Shown: piece by piece, positions 1 through 59,684 of the stretch
Layout of the letters: each line of letters starts with the position of its first letter
Position numbering within the stretch: the first letter of the stretch is position 1
DNA from: Antennarius striatus
Lineage: Eukaryota > Chordata > Actinopteri > Lophiiformes > Antennariidae
Assembly (NCBI RefSeq): GCF_040054535.1
Contig: NC_090794.1
Span: forward strand, 5,943,001 to 6,007,000
DNA: 64,000 nucleotides
Direction of reading: 5' to 3'
Notes under the pieces: generated by a model
Told to the model about the DNA's origin: nothing
What the model saw: only the letters and a program-made list of their open reading frames with translations
Databases searched by the model: none
Program-made: the position numbers and the translations under genes

Positions 1-376
1 CATGTTGGATCGATGCGGCTGCCTCCACTGATTTAAGACAAACAAAGAGACAAAGAGCTTTATTTGTCATTATACAGGGATGGTAGAATGAAATTGAAAG
101 TTAATACTGTCAGAGATGTGATTATATACTGTATATATACTGTATTTTATTCTCTCAGGATTTTATTTTAACAATTCTTTGTTAGTCATCAAATATCATG
201 TTTCGCAGCTTTATCTTGCCAGGCATTTAGATCACATCCCTGATGGTGTTCATATAAGAGTCAGTGGTAGCTGCTGGAGAACCGACCTGGTTGGGGAAAT
301 GTGGGACTATAGTTAAATTAAAAATCCCCTGCTGTGGTGGAAGCAGTTTTAATGACTTGATGTCACTAGAAGAGTA

Positions 377-523
377 CAGTATTTTCTGCACTATAAGGTG
401 CACCTTCATTGAATGGCCTATTCTAAAGCTTTTTCCATATATAAGGTGCATTGGATTATAAGGTGCACTGTCGGCTTTTGAGAAAAAGGCTTTTGGGTGC
501 GATTTATAGTGCAGAAAATACGG
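377..523. mobile_element. Short TIR element (MITE) inserted in upstream duplicate only
   Basis: The left end reads CAGTATTTTCTGCACTATAA. The right end is its inverted complement with one mismatch near the tip (CCGTATTTTCTGCACTATAA when reversed). Internal sequence repeats the 'ataaggtgca' motif several times. This end type is widespread among non-autonomous DNA transposons of vertebrates. The matching site in the downstream duplicate (around 3385-3410) lacks the element, so it inserted after the duplication or was lost precisely. A TA flanks the left end, but no clean target duplication is visible on the right. No transposase is encoded. Confidence 0.72.
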
Positions 524-1149
524 TTTTTATTTGGAAAGAGGACAAGGAATGAAGATGTTGCATGTCTTATGTGTACATCTATGTTTTTATGTTAGATAAA
601 ATTTTAGGGATGCATTTCGTTTCCTCTTGTTTCTCCCCATCGGCTTGTACCACTTTGATGAAACAAGACCCTATGGTTTCCTGAGGATGGTGCAGAGAAA
701 CCGTGAAGTCGAATACTTCCACACATGTCCAAATCCTATTTCATTGACAATGATCACATTATTTGTAAAATAAATATATATTTAACCCAGTACAATCACT
801 GTCTCCTGATATGTGTTGAGGACTATACAGTATGTGACTGCATATTCGGTTCAATTTTAAGTCCTACATCTGAATAATGAACAATGATGTAAATTCTTAA
901 TGAGGGTGTAAAAGAAAGAGGCCACATTATGTAAAAAAAGAACAACCAGAAAACGGTCATTATATTAGCTAAATGTTAATTTCCACCTGCACTAGGGTCT
1001 TGTGCACCCAAAAGGGACAGTACTTGTAGTCCACTACAGTACACTACATGTCCCATAAGCCACTCGTGGTATTCATCATGTGCAGATGATTACGTGCCTT
1101 TCTCAGTCATCCGTCTAGATGAATTCTTCAGTGTCAATTTTGTAATAAT

Positions 1150-1233
1150 TTATTTATTTTCTGAACTGGGTTAAAGAGGGAGACGACTGACGGTACATCC
1201 GCCGACCACCTCGTCCCGTGGCAGCAGCGACAG
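1150..1233 (+). other. Duplicate of the ephx1 non-coding first exon with intact donor site
   Basis: The block ends in 'agcagcgacag' followed directly by a gtaaaa donor (GT at 1234-1235). It is near-identical to 4105-4187, the inferred non-coding first exon of ephx1. If transcribed, it could splice to the ephx1 coding exon acceptor at 5274/5275, running over the intervening srp9 gene. It could equally be a dead relic. The start of the block is approximate because I cannot locate a transcription start. Confidence 0.5.
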
Positions 1234-1959
1234 GTAAAACGACTCGAACAGTGACAGTAAGGGGTAAAAACACGAATTTAAATATCTTAGTTAAGATTTT
1301 TTTTTTTGTGTTGAAAAGCTAAAGTTGCAGGAAGTGATTGTTTTAACCAGGTTTAGCCGTGAGGGGGGAAGAAAACCGTTGATCTGACAGATACATCTAA
1401 ATCGTAGTGCGTAGATAAAATTTAAATTTTGTCGGAAATACAGTACTGTACTGTACTTTCTGACGTCACTTCCACGCTAACCTACGTCCTGACGTCATCA
1501 GTCGTCTGGATGATTTATGTTTTTTTTATAGCTAGAAACTGTAGAACAGTCTGAATAGTGAGAATGGGTACCAGGCGCGTTTGTTATAATAATAAATCAT
1601 CTGTATTTCTATAGAATCTTTCAGACAAGAAATACTCCTCAAACTGTTTTCTAACAACAAATAACTTCAACCAGAAATATAGATGTTAATGTAAACGTGC
1701 TAATTGTGAAAATAAAGAAATGTTGGTTAACCTTTCATAACATTGTGTACAGAGACTGTAAGTACACTGGCTAGGTCAACTTCTTCTTCCAATAATTTAT
1801 GATACTTACAAAACTTGCTGTCCCTGGGAAAATATTATTGTGAACATGTTCAAGGTCACATCTGAGACGAAAGACATTTGGAACACACTGCTGATGTGTT
1901 GTTGAGAAAATAGTTATCCGTAGTGATGGGCATATGAAACTTCATAGAGCTTTGAAGCC

Positions 1960-2100
1960 TTTCATCCCATTGGTTCATTCCAGCACCTTTCCTCACGGCA
2001 CACGCTTTAAAGCCGCGATACATGACGTCACATCATTCATCCACATCGTTCAATTCAAACAGATTGTTTGGTACAACAGTAGCTTTGCTCGGTTAAAATT
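1960..2100 (+). promoter_or_regulatory. srp9 promoter with CCAAT box and full CRE
   Basis: Immediately upstream of the srp9 start codon there is an inverted CCAAT box (ATTGG at 1969-1973) and a perfect palindromic CRE, TGACGTCA, at 2023-2030. The spacing (about 70 bp from CRE to ATG) fits a compact housekeeping promoter. No TATA box is obvious in the expected place. The call rests on motif content and position only. Confidence 0.6.
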
Positions 2101-3054
2101 ATGACTTGTTATGAAGTTTGGGAGGAGTTTGCCCGTGCAGCGGAAAAATTGTATCTGGCAGATCCCATGAAGGTAAAAACATTTTATGTTAAAGTAGTTT
2201 AGCGTGTTAGCTAGATCGCTTATGAACAGGGTGACCGCTGCACATTATTTAAAAAAAAAAAATATTGTCAGATATAGTAATTGTTTATTTTTTTTTTGCA
2301 GGTTAGATTGGTGATAAAGTACAGACACTGTAACGGCAAACTTTGTATCAAAATGACCGACAATGATGTGGTAAGTCAAGTAAGTTAAAAATCATTGATG
2401 ATTTACTATCAGTCGTCATGATTAAATAATATAAATCCGGTTTATGAACAGAAAACCCTGTGACAGTTCTAATTGAGGTGAGATGACGATATTTAATTTA
2501 TAGTGTAACGACAACGGCGATACAAACAAATGTGAACACGTGTGAGGCTGGGTACTTTCTACTTGAAGAAACTAGGCAGCACGACTACCCACAATGCACC
2601 AGTGCAGGAATATTTGAATTAAACATTTGGTTTCATAAATAAAACCAAAATGTTTGACAGATTCATGTCAACCGGATGATTGTTTTAGATGAATGTAAAG
2701 ATTACTGAGATTCATCCTCATGGAATAATGATCTCCGTAACAGAGTTTTGAGCATGGCCATAGATACGGAGATAACATCAAAACATCATTGTTTAATGTC
2801 TTGTATTTTTGGATACAGTAAAATTCGCCAACTGTAATGCGTAACAAAAACATAACACGTGTTTGTATAATGTGTTTTGTAAAAATGTTAACAGGAAATG
2901 GCTCCTTCATGTGGTGTTTTGTCCATCTTTACAGTGCTTACAGTACAAAACAGACCAGGCTCAGGACGTGAAGAAGATGGACAAGCTCCATGGAAAGTTT
3001 ATGAGACTCATGGTGTCCAAGGAGACGCACAGTGGTTCCATGGAGATGAACTAA
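2101..3054 (+). CDS. srp9: Signal recognition particle 9 kDa subunit
   Basis: Three coding exons, 2101-2172, 2302-2370 and 2935-3054, give an 86-residue protein, the same length as human SRP9. The splice sites are canonical and all introns are phase 0. SRP9 pairs with SRP14 to bind the Alu domain of 7SL RNA and slows translation elongation while the nascent chain is delivered to the ER. Recognisable family blocks are the N-terminal [18 protein letters not shown], the central LVIKYRH and the C-terminal [11 protein letters not shown]. The last residues ([11 protein letters not shown]) diverge, as in other vertebrates. Translation starts 70 bp after a CRE. The 3' UTR probably runs to the AATAAA near 3650. 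ephx1 lies downstream on the same strand, as in other vertebrates where the two are neighbours. Confidence 0.95.
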
Positions 3055-3142
3055 AATGCTGTAGAAGCACCTGGACTGATTTCAGCAGTTGTTGAGAACA
3101 CAGTACCATCGGAGTGTGATGTGGGTGTATGTAAAGAGGGAA

Positions 3143-4600
3143 CACGTGGGATCAATGCAGATGCCTCCACTAATTAATATGCTGTCAGAGATGTGTTTAC
3201 ATACTGTAAATATATTTTATTCTCTCAGGATTTTGTTTTAACGATTCTTTATTAGTTATCAAATATCATGTTTTGCAGCTTTACCTTGGGAGGCATTTAG
3301 ATCACATCCCTGATGGTGTTTATAAGAGTCAGTTGTAGCTGCTGGAGAATCAACCTTGTTGGGGAAATGTAGGACGATATTTAATATCACTAGAGGAGCA
3401 TTTACTTTTATTTTGAAAGGGGACAAAAAGGACAAGGAATGAAGATGTTGCATGTCTTATGTGTTTACATCTATGTTTTTATGTTAGATTAAATTTTAGG
3501 GACGCACTATTTTGCCCTCCTGTTTTTCCCCATCGGCTTTGATGAAGCAAGACCATGTGATTTCCTGAGGATGGTGCAGAGAAACTGAAGTCGAATACTT
3601 CCACACACATCGAAATGCTATATCATTTACAATGATCACATTATTTGTAAAATAAATTTTTATTTACCCCAGTACAATCACTGTCTCCTGCTATGTGTTG
3701 AGGACAGTATATGACTGCAAATTTGGTTCAACTTTTGTAAATTAAGTCCCACAACTAAATAGTGAACAATGAAGTAATTTATTCATGAGCATTTAAAAGA
3801 AAGAGGCCTCATTGAGTTAAAAAAAAAAAAAACTGACCAGAAAACGGTCATTATCTATGTTAGCTAAAGATTAATTTCCACCTGCACTATGATCTTTTGT
3901 ACCGACTCACCCAAACGGGACAGTACTTGTAGTCCACTACAGTACACTACATGTCCCATAAGGCACTCGTATTCGCACACCTCGTTTTCCTGACACGTTC
4001 GTCCTTACACTTCTCCATCATGTGCAGATGATTACGTGCCTTTCTCAGTCATTTGGCCGGCATCGTCCTTCTAAATGAATTCTTAAGTGTATTTTGTCAC
4101 TTATTTGTTATTTCCTGAACTGGGTTAAAGAGGAAGACCACTGAAGGCACTTCCGCCGACCACCTCGTCCCGCAGCAGCAGCGACAGGTAAAACGGCTCG
4201 AACAGTGTCAGTAAGGGGTAAAAAAGACGCGAATTAAAAAATCTTCGTTAAGATTTTTTCTGTGTGTGTGTTAAAAAGCTTAAGTTGCAGGAAGTGATCA
4301 AATCTGCAGAGTGCGTAGATAAAATTTAAACTTGGAACATTTGTCGGAACTACTTTCTAATTTATCTGTCAGGTTAACCTACGTCCTGACGTCATCACTC
4401 GTCTTGCTGATTCACGTTTTTTATAGCTAGAAACTGTAGAGCAGTGTGAATAGTGACAATACCAGGCGTGTGTGTTATAATAATAGAATCTTTCAAACAG
4501 GAAATACCTCTCAAACTGTTTTCCTAACAACGAATAATATCAACCTGAAATATGCATATTCATGTAAATATGCTAATTGGGACACTAAATATGGATAAAA
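3143..4600 (+). repeat. Tandem duplication, downstream copy (srp9 3' UTR to ephx1 first intron)
   Basis: Counterpart of 1-~1720. It starts about 90 bp after the srp9 stop codon and covers the 3' UTR, the likely polyadenylation signal near 3650, the spacer, the inferred ephx1 first exon (donor at 4188) and part of the ephx1 first intron including a TGACGTCA near 4388. It lacks the MITE found in the upstream copy. The offset between copies is about 3.1 kb at the left and 2.95 kb at the right, so the duplicated unit is about 3 kb and must have included srp9 itself. Confidence 0.88.
4105..4187 (+). other. Inferred ephx1 non-coding first exon
   Basis: A GC-richer block ends in 'agcagcgacag' followed by a gtaaaa donor (GT at 4188-4189). 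The next acceptor on this strand, 'gaagcag' at 4268-4274 plus 1 kb, is at 5273-5274, leaving 17 nt of 5' UTR before the ephx1 ATG. The presence of the same donor in the duplicated copy supports it being a real, conserved splice site. The transcription start is not determinable by eye. Confidence 0.55.
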
Positions 4601-5274: not shown

Positions 5275-5291
5275 CGGCGACACTGAGCACC

Positions 5292-7855
5292 ATGTTCACG
5301 GAAGTACTGGTTGCCGTGGTGATTGGAGGACTGATTTTATTCCTGGTTCAGAGGAGCAGAAGCCAGGTTCTAAAGACCGAAGATGGATGGTGGGGGGTTG
5401 ATGCACCCCCAGATGGCGAAGAGGACGGTGCCATTCGTCCTTTTAAAGTCACCACTAGTGATGAGGAGCTGGAGGTCAGATTCTCTCGTGGAGCAGTTGA
5501 CCAGTAGGAAGGCTTGTGAACGGTGAGGGTGCCCTCATACCTTCTGTTTTTCTCTATCAGGACCTCTACAGAAGGATAGACCAGACCCGTCCTGTTCCTT
5601 CATTGGAGGACAGTCAGTTTAATTATGGCTTCAATTCCAACTACCTAAAGGAGGTGGTCACGTACTGGAGAAACGACTTTGACTGGAGGAGACAAGTAAA
5701 CAAACTCAACCAGTACCCCCACTTCAAAACCAACATCGAAGGTGAGGCGACTGATCAGACACTGAAGAACATCATCCTTCATTTGACCTCGTCTTAACCA
5801 CTGAACTTCCATTTAGGCATCGATATCCACTACCTGCACGTGAAGCCCAAGAAGGTTCCAGATGGAACCACCGCCATTCCTCTGATAATGGTCCACGGCT
5901 GGCCTGGCTCCTTCTACGAGTTCTACGGGTTGATCCCTCTGCTTACAGAACCATCAAACCCAGATGACCTGGTGTTTGAGGTGGTGTGTCCCTCCATTCC
6001 AGGCTACGGCTTTTCTGAAGCTCCACACAAGAAAGGTGAGTCTGGAAGGAAAGTATCCACGATGCTTGAAAACGAAGCTAATCCAAAAAACTTGCTTTTA
6101 CTATCATGACTATTGGATTTGGACTATTCTATTGCATATATACCACTAAGTACTGTATGTGCTTTTTGTCGTATCATCCCTCTGTCAACAGGTTTTGATT
6201 CAGTTTGTGCAGCACGCATCTTCCACAAACTCATGAGACGTCTGGGCTTCCAGCAGTTCTACGCTCATGGAGGGGACTGGGGCTGGCTGATCACCACCAA
6301 TATGGCTCAGCTGGAGCCCAAGTAACAGATTTACTAAAAGCTTTGAAAGCTTCCTTCATTCTGAATGAATTTACCAGCTTTACATTTTGCAATAACGATG
6401 TATTCTTCCTCGAAAATCCAAACGTTGATACATATATTTTTCAGACTTTCCTGTTTGGTTCTTTTGACATATTGATATTTTTTTATGCCCCAGGACAGTC
6501 AAAGGCCTCCACGTGAACTTTGCCCCACCCTCCAAGCCTGGGCTGCCTGTGCTTTTGTCCGTTATGCTTGGCCGCCGCTTCCCGAAGCTGTTCGGTTTCT
6601 CCGACATGGATATTCAACGTCTCTTTCCTCCATTGGAGAAACTGGGGGTGGAGATGATTAAAGAGACCGGCTACATGCATATCCAGGCCACCAAGCCTGA
6701 CACTGTGGGTAAGTGTCCATTTCAGCTACTTTGCGACATGAGATCATTTTATCTGAGGCTGAGGTGGACACAAGAAGAATGCGTGTAAGCAGAGAGACTT
6801 TTATGAAACAGATCCTGGGAGCAGAAACTCTGTTTTTATTTTCTGTATTTATAGTATCCTATGGAGATGTTTCTGACCAGACCTTATGACAGCATCCATA
6901 ATAATCGGTGCCTCTGTATGTTCCATCAGGTCGAGGACTGAATGATTCCCCTGTGGGTCTGGCTGCCTACATCCTGGAAAAGTTCTCCACCTGGACAGAT
7001 CAGAACTTCAGGAACCTGGAGGATGGAGGACTCACCAGGTTACTAGCACAGAATAGAATATAAGAGATTTAGTTGCATTTAATCAATCACCAGCTACTAA
7101 ACTGCTTGGATAGTTGATTAATTGGTTTAAGTAATTATGGAGAGTTGAAATATTCCCAATCCAGCTTCATAATTGATAATATTTGATTTTGTTTTAAATT
7201 TATTTTTGCATGAGGACATTATCTTGATTTTCAGGAAGCACTGATGAAAAAAGTTTGGACACTTCATAGACCAAATAATGTAGAAATTCCTTTTAAAAAG
7301 AAATTATTAGATTGGAAGTCTCTACAGATTACTGTCAGATAAAGTTTTAGGTGCCTTGCAGGAAGTTCTCCCTGGATGATCTTCTGACAAATGTGATGAT
7401 CTACTGGACTTCTGGCTGCATCGTCCCCTCCATGAGGTTCTACAAGGAGAACCTCAGCAGAGGCCTCTACCCGCCTCACACCAAGTAAGATACTGATTCT
7501 GTGGTGATAATGGTTAAATCAGAGTTGGAGTATTTAAAGGACAGATGAACATATAGGAGGGTTGGGTCTTGGTGGTGTAGGTACTGCTTGTCCTTAAGGA
7601 GGAATTGGGCGCTGACCAACTAGCACATCATCGTCTCTTCACAGGATGCAGGTGTACGTCCCCACCGGGTTTGCTTGCTTCCCCAATGAGTTGATGCACA
7701 CCCCCAAACTATGGGTGAAACAGAAATACCGGAAACTCCTGACCTTCTCGGCCATGGCTAGAGGCGGGCATTTTGCTGCCATGGAGGAGCCCCAGCTGAT
7801 GGCGGAAGACATCCAGAACTTCACAAAGATAGTAGAGAAGAAGAAGAAGAAATAA
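5292..7855 (+). CDS. ephx1: Microsomal epoxide hydrolase 1
   Basis: Eight coding exons: 5292-5474, 5561-5741, 5817-6035, 6192-6321, 6494-6708, 6930-7038, 7362-7484, 7645-7855. They encode 456 residues (human EPHX1 has 455). The enzyme hydrolyses xenobiotic and lipid epoxides to diols on the ER membrane. Residues 3-21 form the hydrophobic anchor, and the EHN domain follows (DGWWG, IRPFKV). The alpha/beta-hydrolase fold carries HGWPG at 148-152 (oxyanion hole), the nucleophile D223 in GGDWG, tyrosines Y298 and Y373 that activate the epoxide, the acid E402 and H429 in GGHFAA. All align one-for-one with human D226, Y299, Y374, E404 and H431, so it should be active. The C terminus is a short lysine run. 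An AATAAA lies about 25 bp past the stop. The gene is compact (2.6 kb coding span). Confidence 0.97.
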
Positions 7856-10702: not shown

Positions 10703-13141
10703 ATGGCGGTGAATCCTCTGGAAGGTCTCATGTCAGTTGCAGCCAACCACCAGCTGGTCTCCAGTTCCACCAGTGAGCTGCAGAGGCAGCAGCCCTGTGC
10801 AGCGGGAAGCCCAGCATCCCTGCATGGAATCAGGCAGAGCTCACAGAACAGCAGCAGCAGCCGCGAGCCGAGCAAGTGGGTGAGTTGGAATTTACATCAT
10901 CAAGCATCATCATAACCATCAAAAATCAAATGGAACCAAAAGAGAACAGGAAACATGCTTCAAACGTGTTCATAAAATTGTTGTATGCTATCTCAGAGAG
11001 GAAACGGTGGGATTAATTTCCTCCTTTCCCACAGATGAATACACAGATTATAATAAAGCTGTGTTTTCTTCAGGGGCTGTTTGGATAATAATGGAAACAT
11101 TTATCCTTTATTTAACATGGTTGTGATTTAACAAATTTAAAGAAGCATGAAATATTCATTGAAGAAAGATGTTTTTAAATAGCAATTCTGCTTAGTTGCA
11201 TCCCTAGAATGTAATTTTTTAAAATCAAAGTAGATAAATAAATACCATTACATAAATGTTTCTATAAAGGATTCTTCTGCTACAGGTGTGTGGGTCCAGG
11301 TCAAACCCTGGTTTTAGTTTTGGGTCTGCAGTTCAGTCCAGGACGCTGAGGGGTCAACACTCCCCGGAGAATGCAGCGCGAGAAAGGAGTCGAGTCCGAA
11401 ACCTGCGACAGGCCTTCCACAGCCTGCAGGTACCCTGGTCACAGACAGACCTGTACCTGTTAAATTATGTTAAGACAACCTCTATTATTAGACAATTATT
11501 TATTTATGTTTAATTATTTAACACATTTGAGTGTAAGAGCTAAGAGAGAAAGTATTCCTCTGTCCTCAGGCTGCGCTGCCTTCAGTCCCACCAGACACCA
11601 AGTTGTCCAAACTAGACGTGCTGGTCTTGGCTACCAACTACATAGCTTACCTAACCGAGACCCTGGACCAAGGAGGGACGCTGGCTGAGCACACCCTGTC
11701 ATCCCGAGCGGGTGGTTACCTTCATCCTGTTAAGGTCAGGTTAGCAGTCAGCTACCTACTTCTTCTTAAGGTGGATTGTATAGATTGTTACTTAACAAAG
11801 CATGATAACATGAGAGACAGTTAGGATGAAGCTGAGGCTAAACGTAACGCACATCTCATCAAATCAAAGGCATCTACTTTTATGTCAACTAACTGGTTTG
11901 TGTTTCACAAGGAGAGATAGCGAATATACTGGTAGAAGGATGCTGAGTTTTGAACTTCCAGGCAGGAGGCCTAGAGGAAGACCAAAGAGGAGGTTTATGG
12001 ATGTAGTGAAAGAGGACATGAAGGTAGTTGATGTGAGAGAAGAGGATGCAGAAGACAGGGTTAGACGGAGGCAGCTGATTCGCTGTGGCGACCCTTGAAG
12101 GGAAAAGCCGAAAGGAGAAGAAGAAGAAGGATGTCAAACTCTCAAATTTTCATTTGGACAAGAAGAAATGTCAGCAAGGTACACTAACAGAGAAATGAGT
12201 AATAGATTTCTGTGTGTAGCAGAATAAAAAATTAAGCCACCGCTGAGGGAGCACTGAAAACTTTATTTGAAAAAAAAAGTTTTTTTAAAAATGTACCGTA
12301 TTGGTCCGAATACAAGACGGTGTTTTTTGCATTGAAATAAGACTGAAAGATTGGGGGTCGTCTTACATTCGGGGTCTAGACATTATACCCATTCACAACG
12401 CTAGATGGCGCCAGATATCTTTAAAGCGAATGCTGAACTTAACTCCCCAGGACAAATCGAACCCCTGTCACGAAGACGAAAAATAAAAAATAGCGGTAAG
12501 AAAGAAAAGAGAAGAAAATAAGAGAAGAGATAACAGAAAACGGAGAAACGTAGCGACAATCTGGAGAAAAGTGGGTCGAAGATCGGCCAGGTTAACCGGC
12601 AGCTGAGGAGAAGTTATGATGCAAACTTCAAGATGATGGTGATAAATGAGGCAGAGTCTTCAAACAATTGCAATGTGATCGAATATATTGAATAAATTAA
12701 TATAATCATTTGTTTCAGATGTACTGTAATTATTTTCTGTATAAAAATTAAATTTGGTGTTCAAAAAGTCTTTTTTCAAACTTGAGTCTTGAAAAAGAGG
12801 GGGTCATCTTATAATCAGGGTCGTCTTATATTCGGGCAAATACGGTATTTGACATGCATACTGGTGTACTTTATGCAAGTTTATCTCTTATGGAGTTAGA
12901 GTGTTCTTCTCTGTCTTCTCTTGATATCAGATTTGTGAATTCTGAGAATACCATTAGCCTATTAGCATGATGAGCTAACTCACTCGTCTGTCCCCCTCAG
13001 AAGTGGCCCATGCGGTCCCTTCTTTACTGCGGCAGTGTGGGAGAGCTGTTGTCAGGAGTCCCAGCCAATCAGATGCCTCCATTTGGAAAGGATGGGACAC
13101 ATTCTCTGAACCCGAACTCAGAAGCAGGAAAAGAGTGTTAA
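10703..13141 (+). CDS. tcf23: bHLH transcription factor 23 (TCF23/OUT-type)
   Basis: Four coding exons, 10703-10879, 11286-11429, 11570-11734 and 13001-13141, all joined in phase 0, encode 208 residues. The bHLH domain spans about 88-139: basic region NAARERSRVRNLRQAF with E92 in the E-box-reading position, a loop with PPDTKLSKLD, and helix 2 VLVLATNYIAYLTETL. The motif YLHPVK-KWPMRS just after it, split by intron 3, is shared by TCF23 and TCF24. TCF23 is preferred because slc5a6 lies next door, as in human 2p23.3. TCF23 is described as a bHLH protein that dimerises and restrains other bHLH factors in muscle and reproductive tissue. The N-terminal 60 residues are Ser/Gln-rich and poorly conserved, so the start is the least certain part. 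AATAAA is near 13282. tcf24 remains a possible alternative name. Confidence 0.88.
11908..12130 (+). mobile_element. 3' end of a non-LTR retrotransposon (LINE) in tcf23 intron 3
   Basis: A short open stretch reads like the C terminus of a LINE-encoded protein, with GRRPRGRPKRRFMDVV, then DRVRRRQLIRCGDP and a stop. The sequence after it ('gaagggaaaagccgaaagg') ends in a GAA-repeat tail. This arrangement is familiar from heavily 5'-truncated LINE copies of the RTE-like type in fish. The strand is the same as tcf23. The left edge is approximate and the family assignment is from recall, not from a search. Confidence 0.6.
12296..12845 (+). mobile_element. Non-autonomous pogo/Tigger-like DNA transposon in tcf23 intron 3
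   Basis: A 550-bp element with about 24-bp terminal inverted repeats (left CCGTATTGGTCCGAATACAA, right inverted CCGTATTTGCCCGAATATAA) flanked on both sides by TA, the Tc1/mariner-superfamily target duplication. Around 12595-12690 a decayed reading resembles the start of a pogo-type DNA-binding domain (RRSYDANFKMMVINEAE). The rest of a transposase is missing, so this is an internally deleted copy. The 'cgctagatggcgcca' stretch near 12400 resembles a CTCF half-motif. Confidence 0.75.
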
Positions 13142-23900: not shown

Positions 23901-25855
23901 TACGCTCGGCTTTCTTTCGGTTTGGTCGAGAGCCGAATTTTGGTCGAGTTCAGAGACGTAAAATTCTCGGATTTTCTGGTCGAAAACCGATTTGGTCGAG
24001 AACAGAAGCGTGCGAAAACCGAGGTTTGACTGTATATCTATCTATCTCTTATATATATATATTATTTTCTGTTTATATTTTTGGTTTAATTTTTGTGACA
24101 TAATTGTGGTGTTTAGTAGTCAACAAACGTGGATAAAAGTTATCAGTGGTTTGTAGAGTGACTCACCAGAGCAGTATACACAGTGCACACTAATCCCATG
24201 GCCATCACTGCCCCCCACAGGTCAAAACCCGTTACTGCAAGTAAAAAGAGCGAGGGTAACCAAACGCACCTCTGCAGGTGAAACTGTTTTAAACAATATA
24301 ATTATACACGCTGCATTCAGTGGCATCGGTGAACACAGCATCCTGTGTGGTGACATCATCGACTCTTACCTGCATTGAGGGCCAATGCCGGCGCATACAG
24401 AACCACACCCATATAAATGATCTGCAGAAGATAAAAAAGAGACAAGAAGAAAATGCTGCACGTTTATTCAGAACTTAGTCGAACTCTTGAGGTCGTATTG
24501 TGGTCTAATTTGGCGTGAGATTAAACCTTCCTGTCAATCACTCCAGTCGTAAATATTGTGACCTCTGGATGCTTCAACAGTACGATGTGTGAAAAGGACA
24601 AGTAGCCTTTGAGCAAACGAACACCAGCCATACTTTACACACTTTTATAACTTAATTAACCATTTGTTTTTGTCATGTCATCAGTTCAGAACATTGTCAA
24701 TGATTTAATTGGGGACCTCACACATAAAAGCTCATAAAAGAAACTTGTATAAAATTTACAGCGGTCACAGTAACATCTCTTTCATTCACACGTTTACTCA
24801 GCAGATATCCAGCTGATAAATCGGAACTTGACCCACAATTCCTGCAAGCTTCCACACGAGAATGCAAAGAAGTTATCGCAAAAAGATATGATGATGAACA
24901 TACCATCTGAAAGATGAAGGTCACGGTCCCACAGATACGAACCGTCTTATTAAAGCGCAGCTCCAGGTACTGTTGAAGGGACGGAATGAAAAGAAAGAAG
25001 AAAAAAAAAGGGAAAAAAGCTTAAATAAAAATCAAAAAGCTGGTAAAAATATAATCTCAGAGTCAATCTGTGACATCCGATTGGTGCTGTGCTTAATCTG
25101 AGCAACTGTTTAGATTCAAAATGAGGATTTAAGAGTCACTGAGCTTTTAGGAGAGGAAGTAGATAAAGTCAATAATGTCTGTTTTAAAACAAGTACACAA
25201 AGGATAAACTGATACCGTAAAAGGTCTCAGATCATACTTAACAAAATTGAATAAAAAACTAAAGTGTTCAAAGTGTAAAACAGAAAAACGAGCAGACGGG
25301 AAAAAAGAAATCACAATGAAGAAATTCAAATGCGTCCATCCAAACCAGCGGTACGGTCGTGTCAGTCTCTGTGCTGGTTGTTCGTACCTCGTAGGCGCTG
25401 GACAGCCGCAGCCTGTAGAAGACCGGGATGAACACGTGAGCTGGGATGAGCAACCCCAGGAAGTAGGAGCAGCCCAGGAACCAGTACTGCGTCCCGAAGG
25501 TGTACACCTCAGACGGAGCCCCCAGGATGGCCACAGCCGACTGGAACGTGGCCAGAAGGGACAGGGATACGGGCAAGCAGCTCATGGAGCGGTCGGCCAT
25601 CAGGAACTCCTGGAGCAAAAACAAAACACGTAGAGATAAAGACAGAAATTTCCGCGGTGAAAATCCGACGGATCCTGCACAGTACGGGAGGCCTCGACGG
25701 ATGCTGGGTCTTTCATTTAAGCGGCGTACCTGCGTCGTGCGCTGGCGTCCTCCCGTGAAGGCGTAGAAGAGGCCGATGCCGGCTGAGGCCACCAGCAACA
25801 AGGCGAAGATGACGTAGTCCACAGTGGTGAAGTGCATTTGGATTACCTCCCCCAT
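20965..25855 (-). CDS. slc5a6: Sodium-dependent multivitamin transporter (SMVT)
   Basis: Sixteen coding exons on the minus strand: 25855-25730, 25609-25388, 24969-24904, 24421-24370, 24234-24167, 23486-23332, 23208-23068, 22886-22757, 22677-22589, 22493-22381, 22300-22233, 22139-22053, 21951-21764, 21679-21576, 21373-21252, 21165-20965. They encode 643 residues (human 635) with all phases consistent. SMVT is a plasma-membrane Na+ symporter for biotin, pantothenate and lipoate. Diagnostic SMVT stretches include [73 protein letters not shown] and [15 protein letters not shown]. Three N-glycosylation sequons (N475, N484, N495) lie in one extracellular loop. The C terminus ends ETAL, a class I PDZ ligand like the human ETSL. 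The ATG at 25855 is chosen because the frame upstream reaches a stop with no other ATG. Confidence 0.96.
22341..22360 (-). promoter_or_regulatory. Candidate CTCF-binding site in slc5a6 intron 10
   Basis: Read on the minus strand it is TCCACTAGGGGGAGACTGCT, a good match to the CTCF core plus downstream positions. It lies in a 80-bp intron. Motif only. Confidence 0.45.
23570..24032. mobile_element. 463-bp TIR element in slc5a6 intron 5
   Basis: The ends are inverted repeats of about 23 bp (left CAGTCAACCGTCGGTTTTCG, right inverted CAGTCAAACCTCGGTTTTCG) and both are flanked by TA. The interior is built of degenerate repeats of 'gttcgaaa' and 'tccgttcc' words with no transposase. This fits a non-autonomous Tc1/mariner-type element. 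It sits between coding exons 5 and 6 and does not touch either splice site. Confidence 0.75.
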
Positions 25856-25959
25856 GATGCTGTTGGATGTTGGGATGGGGGAGCTGGTGATAGAGCGGCC
25901 TCGAGGGCTGATCACGACCTCAGAGAGAGCTCTTCATCCATGGACGGGACGACCGAGAG
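25856..25959 (-). promoter_or_regulatory. slc5a6 5' UTR with two overlapping upstream ORFs
   Basis: The minus-strand acceptor 'cctccag' ends at 25960, so the first coding exon carries 104 nt of 5' UTR. It contains an ATG at 25941 opening a nine-codon uORF that stops at 25912, and a second ATG at 25937 in another frame stopping at 25920. Both end before the main ATG at 25855. Such uORFs usually damp translation of the main frame. That this segment is really in the mRNA is inferred from the splice-site pair. Confidence 0.5.

Positions 25960-46956: not shown

Positions 46957-47050
<94 letters not shown>
46957..47050. repeat. (TA)n microsatellite
   Basis: About 46 pure AT/TA units. It ends roughly 75 bp before the splice acceptor of the first coding exon of the LRR gene, so it lies in the inferred 5' intron. 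Confidence 0.97.
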
Positions 47051-47128: not shown

Positions 47129-49044
47129 ATGCTGCACATGTTAATGCTAGTGATATTATGGGTGGTGATGGGAGTGGAAGGCTGTCCAGATGTGTGTAAA
47201 TGTTCCAGGAAGTCCGGTCCTGAAAGGTCAGAGGTCAACTGTCATAAGAGAGGGCTTCGGGCCTTTCCCTCCAAACTGCCCACTGATGTCTGGATCCTCA
47301 AACTGGGTGAATGACTTTTAAGACTCCTGTGAAGTTCAAGACACTTCATTTCAATTGAACCTGACATTTACTGTAAGCAAATAACCTCAAAGAATCTTAC
47401 ATCTGTGCATAGGTGAGAATGGCATCACAGAACTGAAGGCCAATGCCCTGAGGTCTGTCCCAAAAATTGAGAGCATCAAGCTGGAAAGAAATGCCATCAT
47501 GTCCATCCATCCCCAGGCTTTTTCTGGTGCAAAACAACTGAAACTTCTCGATCTCTATGGCAACCACATCACCACCCTCCCTCCCAGGGGACTGCAGGTA
47601 AAGAGCCTGGAAAGGATTTACATATTTACAAATTTACAAATCACATTGAGTTTAACCATATTAACCGTTCCTTTCATACTTTAATCTCAACCTGTGTTTC
47701 TAGGACCTCCTGAACCTTCGTTTTCTCATGCTGGGACAGAACCAGCTTGGCATCCTCAAACCTGAAATGTTTGCAGGATTGAGGAATCTGTCAGAGTTAG
47801 ACCTGCCCCTCAATGCTTTAACTACGCTCCCATCTAATGTCTTCAAGCCTCTCATCGCCCTCAAAGTTTTGGACCTTTCTTTGAACCGTATCCAGAAGAT
47901 TTCTCCTCAGGCCTTTGCAGGACTAAGACAGCTCATGTTCCTCAACTTAGACAATAACAGGTAAAGCTAAACCAGCACAAACCTTATCCAAGGCTTTGAC
48001 AATCCTGACCCATGTCTCACTCCTCCACAAAGTCTGGTGTGAGAGAATATGTTGTTTGGTGACCATCCATCGCAGTCTTTGTTGAAAACCAAACGTGTTT
48101 CATGATTTTTCAGACCTAGGCTTAGGGTTTGGTTAGATTCAGGCATAAAAATATGGTCAATTTAAGAAAATGATCTTATCGGATATGGCATCATTTTTAA
48201 TGTCAAGGAATTCTGATGCTCTACTCAATCCAGTCTGAAGACCATCCCTGCTGGAGCCTTCAAGCCGCTGCGCTCTCTGGAGATGCTGGTTCTAGACAAC
48301 AACCTTTTGTCCACGCTGAGCCAATCAGCATTGGATGGCTTGAACAATGTGCAGGTAACAAACTGTCTTGAGTTTTAATCAGGATCAGTTTCCATAAAGG
48401 AACACAACCAGAATTGATTCATCCGTCTTTGTTTAAAACCAACCGCCTCTATGTGAAGTTAAGCTGAAATTGGTTAAGTGTGATAATTAGGTGACCTTTG
48501 CAGTAAAATATTTTGGTACTCAGTTGCTCTTATATTCCCACAGAATGTTTTACATATAACTTTCTTGCATTGGTTCTCTAAATGTCCCAATAATAAATGA
48601 GCTGAATATTGAACCAGGAGCTCTACCTGAGGAACAACGAACTGGAGCACCTGCCGCCTGATGTGTTTGGGAAAATGGCCAAGCTTTCTCAGTTGGCTCT
48701 CAGCACAAATCGCCTGAAGACAGTGGATGGAAACATGTTTGCCCATATGCCTGGTAAAACTGCCACCAGCTTGCATTTTTATTGCCCCACTTTCAAAGAA
48801 CGACATCTATTAATGCCAACATTTTTAGTTTTTCCTTTTCTGTCTCCTCTTAGATCTCAAAAAGCTGCGCCTCCATGACAACCCGTGGCAATGCGACTGT
48901 AACATCATCTCCTTGGTACAATGGATGGGACAGACCAAGGCCATGCTGTCACCTCGGGATGCTCTGAAGTGTGCGGGTCCTCCAAAGCTGAGAAATAAGA
49001 GCTTCTCCAGCCTTCAAGCTGACAAACTGCCCTGCCCTGCCTAA
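47129..49044 (+). CDS. Secreted leucine-rich-repeat protein, unnamed
   Basis: Six coding exons, 47129-47306, 47413-47597, 47704-47960, 48234-48354, 48618-48753 and 48854-49044, give 355 residues. The order is: signal peptide 1-18 (hydrophobic, ending VEG); a cysteine-rich LRRNT cap (CPDVCKCS) with VNC and a Pro/Leu stretch; ten consecutive 24-residue LRRs of the LxxLxLxxNxLxxLPxxxF type; and an LRRCT cap beginning NPWQCDCN with two further cysteines. There is no transmembrane segment or GPI signal after the cap, so the product should be secreted. It resembles the LRR portion of carboxypeptidase N subunit 2, LRRC15 and slit-type proteins. Those first two have few introns, whereas this gene is cut by five. 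The ATG is 5 nt after an acceptor, implying a non-coding exon upstream. AATAAA lies near 49543. Confidence 0.88.
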
Positions 49045-50919
49045 ACCCATGGAAAGACCACAGGATGGGCTTAGAATGAACGAATACGGATGATTAACTT
49101 CATACAGAGTTTACATTTTAAACAAGTCACTCTACAAAGCTAAAACGCAGTCAGTATATTTCTCTGCAGGATAGTGTCTTACTCCTTTTTCTAATTTAAG
49201 AGCAACACATGGATGCTTATAGCAAAGACCTTGCATAAACACCTTCTTAAAAATCATCCATCTATCCATTCATCCATCCATCCATCCATCCATTCAAAAG
49301 TTCCTTCTTACTTAATTACTGTAAAAGCTTATTTGCCGTGAAAACTTTATGTCTATTCCTTATAAAACATTTCGTCACTGACTTTAGACATTTTTTTTTG
49401 TCACAATCCTACTGCTTCTCCTAAGTAAGAATGCACCAGCAACGCTGGAACAGCATTTCCGTGGGCACACAGATTGGTACATCTCTCAAACACTAGCAAT
49501 AACGCTTTTGTTGTTCTGCGCAACATTTTACACCAAGAAAGGAAATAAAAGATGGGATAGAAATGTGAAGGGAAATGCAGAAAATTAACTTCAGCTTCAA
49601 ACTTATTATAATCAGGGCTGGAAGAGACATGGAAAGCTGTCCCTATACTTTTGGCTATTTAGTGCACAATGGAATTTGCACAACCTGTGTTTTACTTCCT
49701 GCTGCTTCAGTGCAAACCCCTTATTCTCCTGTCAGTGCATCTGCATCACACTTCATGCTGTGATTTACTTCTTCTGCACCGCAACTTCCTCGTACCTGCT
49801 GCTGTCAGACGTGTTCTCACCGCTGAGCATCCACAAGATGAAGCAGATGGAGACAGTGACAGAGACATCACTTCACAAAGGGAAGCGAGGAAAGATTTGA
49901 GCAAATGGGAGTAAGCGCGGAGTGAAGAGGTGATGGGAGGGCTGGCGGAGTGGAGGTGGGAGACAGTCGATAGCAGAGCGCTGACAATTGACAAGGCAAC
50001 TTCAATCGACCTCCACATACAATGATTTTGAAAGGGCGTGAAAAGGCCGGCGTCTCCCAATTCTTTGGGGGAGATAATCGCTTTAATATCCACCTGCATT
50101 CAACCTACTATTACAGGAGCGCACCCGAGAACAATATAATAGCCAGCTTCTGTCTCAAGCTGCAGTGGAGCTCATCTCTCTGGCATTTCATTTTACAAAG
50201 TCAAGATTTATTTTGTCCTCCCTGAAAAAAACATTATGCCGCTCTTATTTTAATAGGATGCATAAATTCTGTCATATTTAAAAAGAATTTCACTTTAGTC
50301 CAAAAACCACGCTACAGTTCATTCGTCATTAACATTTCACACTTACCACCATTGCAGATGATTTCCTTTTCAGATGTCATGTGTCATCCCCACGAGAAAT
50401 ATAACATAACTGAACGCTTCTTTTGTCCACATGCTTTTGTGCTCTAGATATTTGAATATCTTTGAACATGCATATAGTCTTAAATAATATATTACAACAA
50501 TGTACTAGATTATAATACCGCTACATACTACTACTAAGGGCGCTCTCACTTTTAAATCATCCAGACTGTTGTGTTTTGTCAGGATTTTATGAATTCTTCA
50601 GGTAATAAAACATTCCTGGATGATTTAAAACTGCACAAAACATGTTTAAAATGGCCCCAAAAATTTTTTCATTCAGTTTGTTTGTTTCGTTCATTGGTTG
50701 AATGGATATGTTCTTCTGTGATCTATTATCTCTTGAACAACACAAGTGTGTTGATGGACCACTGGATACATCCACTGAATGGAAACACATCCCATCATCA
50801 GAGGCTTTCCATCCTGTCCTATCTGAAATTAACTTTTTTCCTAGAGTAGATGCAGAATTCTGCTTTGGTTGGTGAATGAATAGTGCATGTTGTGTTATGT
50901 TATGTAATGTTGTGTAACG

Positions 50920-51053
50920 TTATATTATGTTGAGTTATATTATGTTGAGTTATATTATGTTGAGTTATATTATGTTGAGTTATATTATGTTGAGTTATAT
51001 TATGTTGAGTTATATTATGTTGAGTTACATAATGTTGAGTTACATTATGTTGG
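50920..51053. repeat. 15-bp minisatellite
   Basis: About eight to nine near-identical units of gttgagttatattat, diverging at both ends into related 'tgttatgt' words. No spacer structure, so not a CRISPR-like array. Confidence 0.92.

Positions 51054-59490: not shown

Positions 59491-59684
<194 letters not shown>

Follow-up and report, generated by a model that had tools for sequence, protein, structure and literature searches.

A probable tandem duplication around srp9 in Antennarius striatus carrying two copies of a putative ephx1 promoter and first exon

How does a single epoxide hydrolase gene come to have two similar putative first exons upstream of it, with an intact housekeeping gene lying between them, and could both be used? 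This question is raised by a 64,000-nucleotide stretch of the Antennarius striatus genome (GCF_040054535.1, contig NC_090794.1, positions 5,943,001 to 6,007,000 of the forward strand), the whole of which is referred to here as the window and within which all coordinates are given. A first-pass annotation of this DNA had proposed that two copies of srp9 3' sequence, spacer and ephx1 non-coding first exon lie in the same orientation about 3 kb apart, with srp9 between them. Self-BLAST and local alignment bore this out. Copy A spans positions 1 to 1716 of the plus strand (to 1730 in the local alignment) and is cut by the left edge of the window, and copy B spans positions 3143 to 4589 of the same strand, as delimited by the self-matches and the local alignment. 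Two collinear direct self-BLAST matches join them, one between 535-1716 and 3425-4589 (869 bits, E = 0.0), the other between 101-316 and 3174-3384 (E = 4e-72), so that the self-comparison yielded long collinear matches and not short scattered identity. The offset between paired copies ranged from 2872 to 3142 bases among the 20 of 26 direct-repeat families listed. The local alignment of copy A to copy B scored 1573.5, compared with a maximum of 47.5 in 50 single-base shuffles; among 38 control stretches from elsewhere in the window, the top score was 43.5. No further self-match below 1e-6 was detected in the 64 kb window with the low-complexity filter on. Two direct, collinear copies close together are what a tandem segmental duplication would leave; the duplication is real, old and of a known kind.

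The extent of homology on either side was informative about the unit that was copied. At the right, homology ends at approximately 1716 in copy A, upstream of srp9, and at 4589 in copy B, within ephx1 intron 1. At the left, homology is already present at base 1 of the window: bases 1-33 match 3143-3175 at 82%, and the first 40 bases scored 42 against that region of copy B, compared with at most 24 in 500 shuffles. The counterpart of base 1 in copy B lies in the srp9 3' untranslated region (UTR), 88 bases past the stop codon, and copy B thus covers most of this UTR, its AATAAA (3651-3656, plus strand) and the spacer. The AATAAA of the srp9-type 3' UTR in copy A (769-774, plus strand) aligns with that of copy B. 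In each copy, srp9-type 3' UTR sequence and its poly(A) signal are followed by the spacer, a putative ephx1 non-coding exon 1 and the start of intron 1.

The gene between the copies is an intact srp9 of 86 amino acids (2101-3054, plus strand), encoded by three exons (2101-2172, 2302-2370 and 2935-3054, including the stop codon) with GT-AG borders. The name given to it in the first-pass annotation was substantiated by Pfam, in which the protein passed the curated cut-off for SRP9-21 (54.1 bits versus 21), and by the PDB, in which the top chain was 7obr_w (E = 2.9e-36). Pattern searches of viral and prokaryote contigs gave 1 and 32 matches, respectively, and, as expected, none was confirmed as a relative. 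The second gene is encoded on the plus strand from an acceptor directly before 5275 to the stop codon at 7853-7855 (5275-7855), with its ATG at position 5292. Once joined, the eight coding exons encode 456 amino acids with no internal stop. The protein carries an EHN domain (PF06441, 125.5 bits) and an alpha/beta hydrolase domain (PF00561, 86 bits), and its PDB matches are juvenile hormone and microsomal epoxide hydrolases, with the juvenile hormone epoxide hydrolase 4qla_A at the top (E = 4e-112). The combination of an EHN domain with an alpha/beta hydrolase fold identifies it as a microsomal-type epoxide hydrolase. To this extent the earlier naming as ephx1 was supported; orthology to EPHX1 is suggested by the protein family and by the position beside srp9, the neighbour order of human as well.

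The putative non-coding exon 1 occupies 1161-1233 in copy A and 4115-4187 in copy B, on the plus strand, with nominal starts and with splice donors after 1233 and 4187. In copy B the exon is followed by GTAAAA and by approximately 400 bases of intron within the block. A run of 21 bases that includes the donor is identical in the two copies, as are 34 of the 36 bases just before it (1198-1233 of copy A). The conserved splice donor, together with its position, suggests that the duplicated exon is exon 1 of ephx1, in which case two first exons with splice donors would precede one ephx1 body.

How the locus came to be arranged in this way is probably best explained by a single old tandem segmental duplication, whose unit comprised srp9 together with the ephx1 promoter and exon 1. 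Such a unit would have begun upstream of srp9, taken in the whole of srp9 together with the spacer, and ended within ephx1 intron 1, at the right breakpoint. The resulting order would be a first srp9 copy, predicted to the left of the window, then promoter and exon 1 of copy A, the second srp9 copy, promoter and exon 1 of copy B, and the rest of ephx1. One tandem event accounts for the homology on both sides in a single step and would place a second srp9 at the left. The copies are also collinear and direct, and unevenness of identity along the block was not significant in five permutation counts of 2000 permutations each (the smallest counts were 156 of 2000 for the longest run and 165 of 2000 for the best 100-column window), which is consistent with one event.

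The segment from the srp9 3' UTR to ephx1 exon 1 is the only one seen twice in the window, and it might instead have been copied upstream of srp9 by itself, through a dispersed or template-switch event, so that a second srp9 never existed. We consider this improbable: homology persists at base 1, placing the left end outside the window, and a copy in the same order and orientation beside its source would more simply be tandem. A low probability also attaches to duplication of the whole srp9-ephx1 pair followed by loss of the first ephx1 body. The same junction would result if everything between ephx1 intron 1 and a point upstream of srp9 had been deleted, but this scheme requires that extra deletion, and self-BLAST found no ephx1-like sequence in the interval from 1717 to 2100.

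Divergence between the copies bears on both the age and the authenticity of the duplication. Identity in aligned columns was 90.5% in the local alignment (1320 columns, including some spurious ones inside an insertion), 89.5% when 312-534 was excluded (1299 columns) and 87.2% with MAFFT when both 1-103 and 312-534 were excluded (1276 columns); the Kimura two-parameter (K2P) distance was 0.10. Many indels separate the copies as well. Two insertions are private to copy A: one of approximately 70 bases at 34-103, and the stretch at 312-534, which is mostly missing from copy B. Within the latter, a short element is bounded by inverted ends of 29 bases each (376-404 and 496-524, 86% complementary) and, judged by its form alone, looks like a small DNA transposon; no second copy of this element was found in the 64 kb window. 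In the local alignment, another 42 bases, at 3974-4015, are present in copy B and absent from copy A. If neutral rates in fish are, as we assume, about 3e-9 to 1e-8 per site per year, the event would date very roughly to 5 to 17 million years ago. The first-pass annotation had described the divergence as indel-rich and had preferred an old biological duplication to an assembly artefact, and both points stand: because substitution is approximately 10%, indels are many and copy A carries private insertions, the copies are too different to be two haplotypes joined end to end or a repeated piece of the assembly, which makes an artefact very unlikely, and nothing in the window was found to favour one. 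Least credible of all is a mobile or dispersed repeat inserted twice, since, even though the block does occur twice and framing repeats could lie beyond the window at the left end of copy A, no additional copy exists in the 64 kb, the block of copy B joins parts of two neighbouring genes, and neither inverted nor short direct repeats were seen at the ends of copy B among the 20 of 26 direct families listed.

On the reading of a tandem duplication of srp9 with the ephx1 promoter and exon 1, the remaining question is whether copy A could still act as a promoter. CpG-rich stretches, defined as merged 300-base windows with an observed/expected CpG ratio of at least 0.9 (window mean, 0.49), occur three in series here: 951-1750 in copy A, 1951-2700, which belongs to srp9 itself, and 3801-4600 in copy B. 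The stretches of copies A and B contain 27 and 29 CpGs, respectively. The M4 motif, which in the available text of PMC5006282 is associated with core promoters and bound by THAP11, occurs as ACTAYRNNNCCCR at 1043-1055 of the plus strand in copy A and at 3946-3958 of the plus strand in copy B, its sole other exact match in the 64 kb. Shuffled windows contained the published form 0.43 times on average, with at least two occurrences in 6 of 100 shuffles; for a tighter form, ACTACANNTCCCA, two occurrences were reached in 0 of 100. The CRE-like motif TGACGTCA was found 7 times in the window against a chance mean of 0.76. Two of these sites (1461 and 1490) lie in copy A, one (2023) precedes srp9 and one (4387) lies in copy B. 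Of the two sites in copy A (1461-1497), only that at 1490 has a counterpart in copy B, with which it aligns (4387).

Retention of CpG sites was compared inside and outside the CpG-rich stretch of copy A. In the first alignment, 28 aligned CpG sites lay inside 951-1750, of which 16 were kept in both copies and 4 carried a methylated-CpG-type change, whereas 2 of the 12 sites outside were kept and 8 carried such a change. Methylated-CpG-type change was thus rarer inside (Fisher, 0.0019), and the corresponding value for keeping of CpGs was 0.035. With other bounds the same test on change gave 0.0012 (1051-1500) and 0.0003 (1093-1503), both sets of bounds having been picked after the sites were seen. 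With MAFFT and without bases 1-103, 16 sites were kept and 6 changed of 30 inside, and 2 and 5 of 10 outside; here the control dinucleotides GC, CC, GG and CA gave values from 0.27 to 1.0. The tendency toward CpG retention in the copy A stretch stands; it is not firm and depends on the alignment.

Several points weigh against reading the locus as a tandem duplication that supplied ephx1 with a second control region. A second srp9, or a remnant of it, is a prediction for the sequence just left of the window, and so is the unit's left end. The paired motifs of copies A and B are one site duplicated and not independent, so that M4 counts once. An ETS-like CACTTCCG at 4148-4155, just 5' of the putative exon 1 donor, is present in copy B only, and this motif is itself at chance level (at least one in 54 of 100 shuffles). 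CpG-rich stretches are common here, numbering 18 in the window, and the difference in CpG change was not significant with MAFFT without bases 1-103 (Fisher, 0.10). Finally, non-CpG sites were no better kept inside the stretch than outside (0.906 versus 0.910), and there is therefore no general sign of selection.

Selection might also show as raised identity in the exon or promoter. Identity reaches 97% over 107 columns at 1001-1110; overall, permutation along the block did not support such a sign.

At the level of its sequence, copy A is not visibly decayed, having kept the splice donor, the M4 motif and the CpG-rich stretch, and it may serve as a distal ephx1 promoter. With less certainty, if this promoter were still active, its exon could act as a distal alternative first exon, joined to ephx1 exon 2 across srp9. 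The full proposal, in which copy A is a working promoter whose transcript is spliced across the whole of srp9, so that srp9 would be nested in a new ephx1 first intron and the gene would have two near-identical non-coding first exons with partly diverged promoters, we regard as rather doubtful. Because srp9 has a CpG-rich stretch of its own at 1951-2700, dependence of srp9 on the copy A promoter seems less likely. Should both promoters work, ephx1, a detoxification gene, would have gained a second control region through the tandem duplication, and srp9 would be nested in its first intron, with both proteins left untouched; should copy A be silent, it would be an ordinary relic. The locus offers a natural case in which a promoter and first exon were copied, most likely along with a neighbouring housekeeping gene.

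Human EPHX1 has alternative non-coding first exons, which are not known to be tandem duplicates of one another, and it reportedly has alternative promoters. The locus described here would resemble human EPHX1 in possibly having more than one promoter and alternative non-coding first exons. A closer parallel in structure is PEP1 of Arabis alpina, for which the available text of PMC3527215 describes a partial tandem duplication that gave two first exons, both spliced to one exon 2 in two overlapping transcripts. The anatomy is similar here, where a putative first exon is duplicated upstream of one gene body. PEP1, however, is a plant gene for which, in that text, transcripts were shown, whereas the ephx1 locus is known here from sequence alone. 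Further-upstream sequences have little homology in PEP1 as there described, whereas the upstream parts are duplicated too at ephx1. Unlike in that account of PEP1, the duplicated exon here is putatively non-coding, and an intact srp9 lies between the putative first exons. The locus is also like the incomplete tandem duplicates considered in the accessible part of PMC2687787, where, as background, such duplicates are said to arise by unequal crossing over, in that a duplication need not include a whole gene with its control regions; that part of the article concerns human duplicate genes generally and not the srp9-ephx1 locus. Literature searches retrieved nothing linking srp9 to tandem duplication in a teleost and nothing on an EPHX1 E1-b promoter. 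Those on srp9, ephx1 and fish retrieved a trout trait study and a report of a human 1q42 deletion, neither of which, in the portions available, concerns this duplication.

Elsewhere in the window, there was no Rfam match at the gathering score, and ARAGORN, run with the bacterial code, found no tRNA in the window. Simple repeats include perfect runs of AC (95.5 units, 59492-59682) and AT (46.5 units, 46957-47049), as well as a 15-base repeat in 8.9 copies (50919-51052). A plus-strand open frame at 11537-11824 has a helix-loop-helix match of 30.4 bits and is, we presume, perhaps a TCF23/24-like gene. On the minus strand, an open frame at 25268-25933 has a weak sodium:solute symporter match of 21.8 bits, just below the curated cut-off of 22.8, and we take it to be perhaps slc5a6. 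Leucine-rich repeat matches were found in two plus-strand open frames at 47385-48878.
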